Origin: Opitutia bacterium
GTDB taxonomy: Bacteria; Verrucomicrobiota; Verrucomicrobiia; Opitutales; Opitutaceae
Assembly: GCA_003153035.1 (NCBI GenBank)
Contig: PMBT01000014.1
Location: forward strand, 11,611 to 51,769
Reading direction: 5' to 3'
DNA length: 40,159 nucleotides
The stretch's first letter is position 1. Each line of letters begins with the position of its first letter. Shown here in pieces: positions 1,203-19,066 of the stretch. Position numbers and translations under genes: made by a program. Under the pieces are notes generated by a model. The model searched no databases and had not been told where the DNA came from. It worked only from the letters and a program-made list of their open reading frames with translations.

Positions 1203-2279
1203 ATGCGGAACATGGTTATGCTTTCCCGGTTCGGCGCGCTTTGTGTCGCCCTGTTGTTTCTCGGCGCCGGGCGCAGCGCGTTGCGGGCCCAACCGGCGGC
1301 TGACGTTCCGCCGCCCAAGTCCGCCAACCCTGAGGACCTCGGCCGCGACGAGTTACTGAAGTCCTACCTGCAACTACGGGAGCAATTGCACACGGCAGAG
1401 GTGGCCATCGTGAACAACCGCCTCGAGAGCGAGGCGACGGCCCGCTCCCAGGCCGCGGCCATCACGGAGAAGCTCGACGCGATCAAAGCGGATTTGGCCG
1501 CCGAGCGCGCGCGTCAGCAACTCGAAGCGTCGCGCGTGGCGGCGGAACGCGAGCGTCAGCAGGCCGAGGCGCAGCATTCGTATCACACGGTCCTCTATGT
1601 CGCGTCGGCAATCGGTGGCGTGGGCTTGCTGGCGATGCTCTTCACGACGCTGTTCCAGTGGCGGTCGGTCAGCCGCATCGCGGAAGTCACGGCCCTGCGC
1701 CTGCAGCTGCCGGACCAGGCCCGGCTGGGGTTTTCGCCCGACGACAACGGCGCTCCTTCGGGCGAGGCGGTGGCACTGTCCAACCAGCGTATGCTATCGG
1801 TGATCCGCCGGATGGAGCAGCGCATTTCCGAGCTCGAACACACCGCGGAGCCTCCGTTGCCGGCCGCATCAGCTGAGCCGGCGGGCGAAACTGATTTTCC
1901 CCAGCGCGCCGCCGCCGCTGACACCGCGGCCAACGATCAAGCCGCGCTGATCACCGCGTTACTGGGCAAGGGCTGGTCGTTATATAACCGGAACCGGGCC
2001 GCCGAGGCAGTGGCCTGCTATGATGAGATTCTGAAGCTCGACGGAAACCATCCCGAAGCGCTGGTCAAAAAGGGTGCGGCGCTGGAGCAGTTGAAGCAGG
2101 ATCATGAGGCCCTCCAGTGTTACGATCGCGCCATCAAGGCCGATCCAAGAATGGCCATCGCCTATCTTTCCAAGGGCAGGGTCTGCAACCGGCTGCAGCG
2201 CTACGACGAAGCGCTGGAATGCTATGAGCATGCCCTGCCGGCGCGAGCCGAGGAAAGTAAGTCGGCCGGCCACGCCTAA
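1203..2279 (+). CDS. TPR-repeat protein with signal peptide, coiled coil and one TM segment
   Basis: The 1158..2279 ORF, most likely starting at 1203 (MRNMVMLSRFGALCVALLFLGAG). TPR-like NRAAEAVACYDEILKLDGNHPEALVKKGAALEQLKQDHEALQCYDRAIKADP; TM YVASAIGGVGLLAMLFTTLFQW. Confidence 0.75.
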   Translation: MRNMVMLSRFGALCVALLFLGAGRSALRAQPAADVPPPKSANPEDLGRDELLKSYLQLREQLHTAEVAIVNNRLESEATARSQAAAITEKLDAIKADLAAERARQQLEASRVAAERERQQAEAQHSYHTVLYVASAIGGVGLLAMLFTTLFQWRSVSRIAEVTALRLQLPDQARLGFSPDDNGAPSGEAVALSNQRMLSVIRRMEQRISELEHTAEPPLPAASAEPAGETDFPQRAAAADTAANDQAALITALLGKGWSLYNRNRAAEAVACYDEILKLDGNHPEALVKKGAALEQLKQDHEALQCYDRAIKADPRMAIAYLSKGRVCNRLQRYDEALECYEHALPARAEESKSAGHA

Positions 2280-2622
2280 ACCGGACTCATGCAGTTGTCG
2301 GAGCGAGCCTGCTCGCGATGACGGAGCGAACATCGCCTGCGAGCAGGCGCCTGCATCGGCGGCGGGTCAGTTTATGTAGGTCGGACTTCATGCCCGACGC
2401 AATGCGCATCGACATCACGCTGTCGGGGATAAACCCCGACCTACCGGCACGGTCCAGTCCTGGCAAACTGACCCACTACCCCGACATCATTCACCGAACA
2501 GTTTGGGTGCTTGCGACCGATCGTACGGGCCGGGCCCGACCTTGGTCGGTGGCTCTTTCCTCGCAAGACAGCGCGGACACAAGGTCCGGCCCTACGTTCT
2601 ACTGCATGAGTCCGGTTTAGGC
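2274..2622. repeat. Composite palindromic element with perfect 22-bp terminal inverted repeats and nested REP-like hairpins
   Basis: gcctaaaccggactcatgcagt (2274-2295) is the exact reverse complement of actgcatgagtccggtttaggc (2601-2622). Inside: REP-like hairpin 2303-2353; inverted repeat gggtcagttt (2364-2373)/aaactgaccc (2465-2474); gtaggtcgg (2376-2384)/ccgacctac (2436-2444); hairpin gtcgggg-ataaa-ccccgac (2422-2440); a further imperfect inverted repeat about 2522-2596. Confidence 0.85.
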
Positions 2623-2682: not shown

Positions 2683-4155
2683 CTAATTAGTGGCAAACCG
2701 TTCGCGTTCCAGGGACAACTGCTGTTTGGCCACATTAATCCGGGCCCCGATCAACTCGCGGTTCTCCTCGCCCTTGGCGGCCAGCTCCTTCTCCAGTTCC
2801 GCGATGCGCTTTTCGTAGGCGCTGATGCGCTCCTGCAGGGGGGTGTGCAACTGCTCCAGCCGCTGCTCCAATTCGTGCATCTCAGCCTCGGCTTTCTGCT
2901 GCACCGAGAGCAATTCCGCCCGCTGGCGGAACAGAGTCTGGAAAATCTTCTCACGCATCCAGCCGAGAGTCCCGGAGCGGATGGCGGCATGGGCCCGCTC
3001 AGCCTTCCCCTCGGCCAACAGGGCCCGGCTGCGCCACTCGTCTTCGCCTGCATCGCCCGGCAAGGCCTTCTGTTCCGATCCGGGCAGGGCCGGGTTCTCC
3101 AGCACCGGAAGCAGCATGGGGGCAGGACGGGTGCGCAGACGCCAGAAAATCAGGATGAGCGCGAGGCCCACGACTCCCAGACCCCCGGCGATCCACAGCG
3201 TCTGTTTTGCGATCTGGCCGGCGACGGACTGTTCCTGCTCGAGTTTGGTTTGCAGGGTGCCGATGAGGCTCTTTTCGCGCAGCACCGCCAGGGCGTTCAG
3301 CGCCTTGCGGTCAATCGTCTGTCCCTTGCGGACGATGACTTGCGCCGCTTCGTACGTGTCGTTCGCCGCGACCCCTTCCAATCGATGGTCGCGCAGAATT
3401 GCGGTCAGGCCCGCGTCGGAGTACGCGCTGACGCGGACGAACGACCCGGCGAACCTGCCCATCTGCTCCTGGCCGGCCGGAAAACGGGTTTCGACCAGGC
3501 GCCGCGCGCGCCAGAGGCTGATCACTTTTCCAGCCGACACCGTCACCCCGGTGTCTTCAAGTTCCAGTGCGGTCGGGCGCTCGCTGGCGCTCTTCACCGA
3601 AATCAGGCGCACGGACTGATTGGCGGGCAACTGACTCTCCGTCTTGTTGCCCACGACGGGCTGGGCCATCACCTCACGCAACGGCCGGAGCAGGCTTTCC
3701 ACAAAGGGTTGATCGCTCACTCCGAGGACCCAGAGGGGCGCCAGCTTGTCGATCGGCAGGTCTTGGGGGGACTCGCGGCCCATTGCCTGGATCACGCTCG
3801 TGCCTGCCGGCGTGTCCAAATCCGCCACGCTGGGGACGCGGCCGCGCACGGCCCCCTGCAGCGCGGCCATGAATTTCGTCCGGGCCGTGGCGATGCTTTG
3901 CCGCAAGTCCTGTTCCGCCTCATCCGCGCTCTGCGGCGTCCGGCGGACGATGAAGGGAACCTGCAGCGCCACCTTCTGTTTCAAGGCTTCCGTGGCGTCG
4001 GGATTCACCACGAGCAACCGGACGGGGGTGATGATATCTTCCCTGGCCACATCGCCCAACTTGTAATCGGGCAGGGCCGCGTGCGCAGAGTGGAGGGGCA
4101 GAACCAAGGCCGCGGCGAGCACGGTGATCGCGGTCCAGGCGCGGGGCGTAATCAT
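2683..4155 (-). CDS. Membrane-anchored protein with 7TMR-HDED (PgpH/YqfF-type) ectodomain-like region and cytoplasmic coiled coil; no HD domain
   Basis: Start at 4155 (MITPRAWTAITVLAAALVLPLHSAHA signal). YKLGDVAREDIITPVRLLVVNPDATEALKQKVALQVPFIVRR and AAQVIVRKGQTIDRKALNALAVL resemble the 7TMR-HDED domain. One TM (LWIAGGLGVVGLALILIFW), then a coiled coil. Confidence 0.65.
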   Translation of the reverse strand: MITPRAWTAITVLAAALVLPLHSAHAALPDYKLGDVAREDIITPVRLLVVNPDATEALKQKVALQVPFIVRRTPQSADEAEQDLRQSIATARTKFMAALQGAVRGRVPSVADLDTPAGTSVIQAMGRESPQDLPIDKLAPLWVLGVSDQPFVESLLRPLREVMAQPVVGNKTESQLPANQSVRLISVKSASERPTALELEDTGVTVSAGKVISLWRARRLVETRFPAGQEQMGRFAGSFVRVSAYSDAGLTAILRDHRLEGVAANDTYEAAQVIVRKGQTIDRKALNALAVLREKSLIGTLQTKLEQEQSVAGQIAKQTLWIAGGLGVVGLALILIFWRLRTRPAPMLLPVLENPALPGSEQKALPGDAGEDEWRSRALLAEGKAERAHAAIRSGTLGWMREKIFQTLFRQRAELLSVQQKAEAEMHELEQRLEQLHTPLQERISAYEKRIAELEKELAAKGEENRELIGARINVAKQQLSLERERFATN

Positions 4156-4795
4156 GGGACAGTTGATTGTTGGCCGACTGAAAAAAGATCGCCTTCCTGC
4201 GCCGAAGGTCACGCGTCGTTCGGCACCTGCCAGAAGCAGCATTTGCACGGTGCGATGGTGTTTGGCCGGATGAGGGAAGTCAAACATTCGGGGATTGGCC
4301 GCGTCCCTGGGGCGGTCCATTCGGCAGGCTCGGTTCAATGATGCTCGCTGCATGCAGATCAGACCCGTTCACCACGGCCCCGGCATCTGCTGACGGGAGG
4401 CTATCCAATCACTTCGTTGGGGAAGACACCAAAATGGTCAGGCCGTGCATTTCACCATTTCCTAGCTCTGCCGGCGCTAACCCAGCCGATTGAACGCTGG
4501 GGCGGAAGGCGGGGCGCGGTTTTGTGGGGCAGCGGGGCCCATGGCGCAGGCTCGGGGCCTCAGTCATCTCGGTTTTCCCGATAGCTTCTTCACGCAATGG
4601 TAGCGAAACGGGCTCTCTGCTGCCTCCGCGTTCTCATGTAAGGTTGGGTTTCTGATGATCGGTCATCGGCACGGTTTCTTTGGGTTTGGTTGCCAGGCGG
4701 GCCCATTCCACGGGCAACCTTCTCGGCGTTCATTTCGAACTATCCTGATACAACGCGGTGCATCACTCAGATCGATCCATTCTGCGACGGAGTAA

Positions 4796-18853: not shown

Positions 18854-18862
18854 GTCGGAACC

Positions 18863-18920
18863 ATGCATCTGTAGGAAGCGCGATGGCAAAGCGGAAATCG
18901 CCCGCAAGCGGGCTTCCTAC
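18863..18920. repeat. REP-like palindromic element
   Basis: atgcatctgtaggaagcgcg...gcttcctac: gtaggaagc (18871-18879) is the exact reverse complement of 18912-18920; inner cccgc-aa-gcggg. A 20-bp identity is shared with 22558-22577. Confidence 0.65.
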
Positions 18921-19044
18921 CTCATTCATCGAGCGGTTTGTGTTCCTCTGAGGACGACCATGGTTCTAATGCATGAGTCCGTATCGGTAGGCTGCCGCCC
19001 GTTTTCGCGCGTAGTTCTGTGAGATTTCCGGCGCAGTGTTGTAG

Positions 19045-19066
19045 GGCGGGGTCGCCGAACCCCGCC
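19045..19066. repeat. Intergenic hairpin GGCGGGGT-cgccga-ACCCCGCC
   Basis: Perfect 8-bp stem just upstream of element E. Confidence 0.5.

Follow-up and report, generated by a model that had tools for sequence, protein, structure and literature searches.

REPINs were defined in PMC3116915, and they and GTAG REPs are moved by RAYTs (PMC3116915; PMC3733652). According to PMC3733652, Opitutus terrae is rich in GTAG repeats, and in A. variabilis and H. neapolitanus REP dimers lie regularly within a larger palindromic repeat; such palindromes were not found there without REPs, and the passage on them assigns no transposase. PMC3733652 also describes the Neisseria and Yersinia MITEs (NEMIS and ERIC) as short, gene-adjacent TIR elements with strong hairpins. 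Insertion sequences (IS) of the IS1380 family (NCBIfam NF033539) and MITEs derived from IS elements represent a different kind of mobile DNA; IS1247, a member of this family, has a 16-bp inverted repeat (IR) and a 5-bp direct repeat (DR) (PMC3281130).

The locus described here lies in a 40,159-nt stretch (the window) of contig PMBT01000014.1 from an Opitutia bacterium and contains a 335-bp element in which two kinds of miniature bacterial mobile DNA that normally occur apart are apparently joined. This element is very probably a non-autonomous MITE of the IS1380 type that carries a REPIN core and two further REPIN-bearing segments. It resembles IS1380 IS and IS-derived MITEs in the TIRs and in the CTNAG-type 5-bp duplications that flank its family, but it contains no transposase and its interior is replaced by REPINs. 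With REPINs moved by RAYTs it has in common inverted REP pairs, a GTAG or GTGG tag and the presence of the same REP types beside RAYT genes in relatives; unlike ordinary REPINs, these pairs are housed in a DDE-type MITE, usually at a constant position, and the shell around them is flanked by target duplications of its own. REP dimers within a larger palindrome recall A. variabilis and H. neapolitanus, but both REPIN-less shells and an autonomous IS1380 element were found here. NEMIS and ERIC are similar as short TIR elements beside genes and, to our knowledge, differ from the window shell in TIRs, targets and hosts. The literature searched, which was covered in part, yielded no IS1380-derived MITE family of this kind. 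The family is new, is assembled from known parts and was found here only in Verrucomicrobiota. The features of the window copy and of a second copy are as follows.

1158-2279, + strand: TPR-repeat protein gene, an open reading frame ending in the left target site
2276-2280, no strand: left target-site copy CTAAA, at the position of the 5-bp CTNAG duplication of other copies
2281-2295, + strand: left TIR CCGGACTCATGCAGT of the probable IS1380-type MITE shell; same ends on IS1380-family elements L324, L337 and L341 and on MITEs in 23/200 family genomes
2297-2354, + strand: original core, a decayed REPIN with REP GTCGGAGCGAGCCTGCTCGCGAT at 2297-2319 and an inverted REP at 2332-2354
2358-2484, no strand: insert 1, with the REP-C doublet GTAGGTCGG../..CCGACCTAC at 2376-2444
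2485-2522, + strand: first part of the shell tail, CATCATTCACCGAACAGTTT..GACCGATC, kept in about 20 copies of the genome
2523-2595, no strand: insert 2, the REP-D doublet GTACGGGCC../..GGCCCTAC, apparently entered without evident duplication
2601-2615, - strand: right TIR ACTGCATGAGTCCGG, exact reverse complement of the left TIR
2616-2620, no strand: right target-site copy TTTAG, inverted rather than direct relative to 2276-2280
18856-18982, + strand: another copy of the shell within the window (127 bp); the first REP of its REPIN core is shortened

A preliminary description of this DNA had reported perfect 22-bp terminal inverted repeats (TIRs), a left arm overlapping the end of the TPR gene and three internal hairpin types, all of which were confirmed. 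The arms at 2274-2295 and 2601-2622 are exact reverse complements lying 305 nt apart in a stretch of 349 bp. With their seven overlapping 16-mers, they are the window's only perfect inverted repeat of at least 16 bp whose arms are no more than 500 nt apart; shuffled sequence gave 0 to 2 inverted-repeat seeds even at 14 bp. Each arm consists of a true TIR of 15 bp (CCGGACTCATGCAGT; 2281-2295 and 2601-2615) and 7 bp of outer target sequence, and the element proper spans 2281-2615. The GCC TAA that ends the TPR open reading frame is located in the left arm, and a converging open reading frame (2683-4353) lies on the other side of the element. The hairpins occupy 2297-2354, 2376-2444 and 2523-2595, the second being enclosed by a 10-bp inverted repeat (GGGTCAGTTT/AAACTGACCC; 2364-2373 and 2465-2474). 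An assembly foldback artefact was excluded by the asymmetric interior and by related elements found at numerous loci across many independent assemblies.

RNA folding of the whole stretch gave a z of -8.7 relative to shuffles. One possible sign of selection for an RNA or terminator structure where the TPR gene ends is this far better folding between two converging genes; another is the reconstructed target, CACGCC-TNA-GGCCGTGTTTT, which, judged by sequence, appears to resemble an intrinsic terminator. Such a reading is quite unlikely, as the TIRs and REPINs themselves account for the stable hairpins, no Rfam family was matched and the same shell occurs beside unrelated genes in many genomes. 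A terminator-like role may be a side effect.

The genome to which the window belongs is a 4.0-Mb, 86%-complete draft in 176 contigs, in which absences are weak evidence. About 25 relatives, typically 133 to 136 bp in length, were detected in this genome with the element and the second window copy as queries. These relatives share a TIR (CCGGAACCATGCAT) followed by an inverted REP pair (GTAGGAAGCGCGC..GCGCGAT / ATCGCCCGC..GCGGGCTTCCTAC), then an asymmetric tail (CATCATTCACCGAACGGTTTGTGTTCCTCTGAGGACGACCACGGTTCTA) and a TIR (TTGCATGAGTCCGG). A recurrence of TGCATGAGTCCG at 18970-18981, also pointed out in the preliminary description, proved to be the right end of the second copy; a further REP-like hairpin, GTAGGGCGGGGTCGCCGAACCCCGCC, is located near this copy at 19041-19066. 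The suggested REP-like interior was likewise substantiated, relatives of both the REPs and the TIRs being present across the genome, genus and family. Several copies in this genome have extra hairpins in the REPIN loop, indicating that nested hairpins are common there. Two hairpin types of other kinds, GTAGCTTCATGCGAAGGCCGAAGC and CCCTCGACCCCGCTCGGGACCCTGAGCTTGTCGAACGGG, were observed in shell REPIN loops (L009, L020, L058 and L083).

Comparison of copies within this genome agreed with the suggestion of a non-autonomous composite with nested hairpin insertions. The core of the window copy aligned with the intact GTAGGAAGC../..GCTTCCTAC cores of other copies, and omission of 2358-2484 and 2523-2595 allowed the window copy to be aligned as an ordinary shell with eight simple copies, from all of which insert 1 is missing. 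On grounds of parsimony, both segments are insertions here rather than deletions in the other copies. The junction of insert 2, ..GACCGATC|GTTCTACTGCATG, is uninterrupted in other copies as GACCACGGTTCTATTGCATG, and from its sequence this segment would fit a clean REP-type insertion without duplication. Insert 1 has the internal 10-bp inverted repeat, and its edges repeat only the 4-bp CATC (2354-2357 and 2485-2488), which was counted against our best explanation. The label of a Russian doll is apt for a copy with its own decayed REPIN and two REPIN-bearing inserts.

The window hairpins have the REPIN structure of two inverted REPs with a GTAG-type tag; the tags are GTAGGTCGG/CCGACCTAC for REP C and GTAC/CTAC for REP D and have decayed to GTCG/CTGC for REP B. 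REPs of the B/A type are present in many copies in the genome, REP D is found at a few other sites and REP C only here, the REP-C doublet of insert 1 being the single one of its kind. Since a TIR-acting transposase would move everything between intact TIRs, and every part of the element lies between them, the whole 335-bp unit with its three hairpins could have moved as one composite. This is improbable given that inserts C and D occur in no other copy, that the full query yielded only partial matches in this genome and that REP C is restricted to this locus. The best explanation, with separate entry of the inserts, draws on relatives in which REP C flanks Y1-transposase (RAYT) genes (congeners L141 and L150) and REP D flanks a RAYT gene (congener L145); RAYT linkage was not found for REP type B. 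No RAYT flanked by the REPs of the shell or inserts was detected in the 86%-complete draft. One contig (L091 1180-1950; G000:C9) carries a RAYT-like gene of 146 aa flanked by GGAGGGCGAGC.. REPs, a separate REP system. This gene was rejected as the source of the shell cores, as its flanking REPs are of another type (GGAGGGCGAG).

The TIR motif was detected in 6/6 genomes of the genus (28 matches; none with a reversed-pattern control) and in 23/200 genomes of the family, representing 12 genera (control, 0). The exact TIR pattern gave 89 stretches across GTDB representative species, all from Verrucomicrobiota and nearly all, judged by their record titles, from Opitutaceae or Opitutia. Among 90 collected copies with usable flanks, 69 were flanked by 5-bp direct repeats of CTNAG (42 perfect and 27 with 4/5 positions), and the middle base was identical on both sides in 43/50. 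These repeats are indicative of DDE transposition. A TNA duplication of the IS5/IS427 type had been considered at first; discovery of the IS1380 partner led to the 5-bp CTNAG duplication being adopted instead. No preference for palindromic targets was observed among the copies. Stop codons were present at 32/49 insertion sites versus 24% of CTNAG sites (with a crude gene model); a stop-codon preference is not claimed, as intergenic sites gave only 9/22 versus 41/128 (p = 0.28).

An autonomous partner was found in L266, where matching TIRs lie 1,493 bp apart around a gene for a 471-aa transposase of the IS1380 family (NCBIfam NF033539, 230 bits against a cut-off of 180; Pfam DDE_Tnp_1_4). Relatives were present in 16/200 family genomes. 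Several of these are complete IS in which both the TIRs and the CTNAG duplications are the same, including one in the genus of the window (L325); flanks of CTGAG/CTGAG, CTTAG/CTTAG and CTAAG/CTAAG were seen, and the TIRs on IS1380 copies were the same as CCGGACTCATGCAGT or one mismatch from it. The 5-bp duplication of IS1247 agrees with that of the shell and IS (PMC3281130). The REPIN-less copies L117 and L203 have a subterminal ACTGCATTGCAGT motif in common with L266, as would be expected of internal-deletion derivatives. In G192 (L321, L344 and L346), eight IS1380 matches were observed, several of which were broken by stops or truncated; the autonomous element has expanded and decayed in this genome.

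As PMC3733652 reports Y1 transposase genes enclosed by TIRs, together with dispersed repeats of such TIRs (TIRYT), and the shell cores are REPs, a TIR-associated Y1 transposase rather than IS1380 might have mobilised the shell. We consider this highly unlikely. Complete IS1380 elements end in the shell TIRs (CCGGACTCATGCAG repeats) and are flanked by CTNAG duplications like those of the shell, and no TIR pair surrounded the gene at the Y1-transposase loci examined. Furthermore, Y1 (HUH) transposition of the IS200/IS605 kind generates no target duplication. The shell would presumably be mobilised in trans by an IS1380 transposase, and the element is probably immobile at present in its own genome, in which no IS1380 transposase was detected at E <= 1e-40 in the 86%-complete draft.

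In the proposed origin, the shell landed in a CTNAG-like site where the TPR gene ends, most likely through an IS1380-family DDE transposase acting on the 15-bp TIRs. This shell would already have carried a REPIN core, like many of its relatives. Two more REPIN-bearing segments would have entered before or after landing, most likely via RAYT (Y1 HUH) transposases, resulting in three hairpin systems within one shell. Mobility of the element, transposase action on it, the order in which events took place and any influence on the TPR gene are inferences. The absence of an intact direct duplication at the window copy (CTAAA/TTTAG) was counted against this explanation, although such footprints decay.

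It had also been suggested that the TPR gene owes its stop codon to the element or its TIR, which was not borne out. The TAA at 2277-2279 lies outside the TIR and within the left target copy, CTAAA, a CTNAG-type target of the kind duplicated around other copies. TPR homologues in G012 and G009 end a few residues from the same place, so that a stop predating the insertion is the simpler reading. The stop either was already part of the target or was restored by the target copy; it is not encoded by the element. No empty site was obtained for the window locus, there being no full-length match to the gene in five congeners. The proposed check for a target-site duplication showed no intact duplication at the window copy, where the two target copies are inverted, and a direct one at the level of the family.

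The outer symmetry at the window copy runs about 10 bp outwards with one indel. A possible reading, which we hold tentatively, is that a quasi-palindrome was corrected by template switching, in which one target copy was overwritten with the reverse complement of its partner to give the inverted flanks (CACG-CCTAAA / TTTAGGCCGTG); the alternative is that the element inserted into a site that was already palindromic. The occurrence of direct flanks in 69/90 copies but inverted flanks here, and the lack of any other preference for palindromic targets, are consistent with this reading, which is compatible with our best explanation. The outer symmetry is accounted for just as well by one palindromic target, for instance the terminator of the gene itself.

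A REPIN-like core, defined as two inverted hairpins tagged with GTAG or GTGG and hence missing copies with decayed tags, was present in 34/92 copies compared to 0.2 expected in shuffles. In the main REPIN-bearing groups, this core lies 52 to 60 nt from one end and 14 to 22 nt from the other. Some groups, such as one of 162 bp (L194/L195/L230), have no evident REPIN. The sequence of the core varies between genomes despite its fixed place near one TIR, and in G137 a RAYT gene (L375) has on either side REPs that match the core REP. One rather doubtful interpretation is that IS1380-MITE shells and REPINs form a stable partnership in Opitutaceae, with the shell as a carrier whose exchangeable REPIN slot beside one TIR would receive, lineage by lineage, the REPs belonging to the resident RAYT, such that unrelated DDE and HUH systems would co-propagate one element. 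The many natural copies that share their ends but differ in their cores would offer a way to determine whether RAYTs alone spread REPINs or whether DDE transposons also carry them as passengers. For the shell, an autonomous partner, a target and a host range are now given, and its presence accounts for palindromic clutter and for contigs that break at the ends of genes in assemblies of Verrucomicrobiota.

A different palindromic element, with ends like CTCTAGAGCGGTTT..AAACCGCTCTAGA and containing a GGAGGGCG REPIN, was observed in L122 and L076 (G000:C48 and C161). Contigs were also found to end inside shell copies (L002, G000:C161:1-71; L157; L162), indicating that such repeats break draft assemblies.
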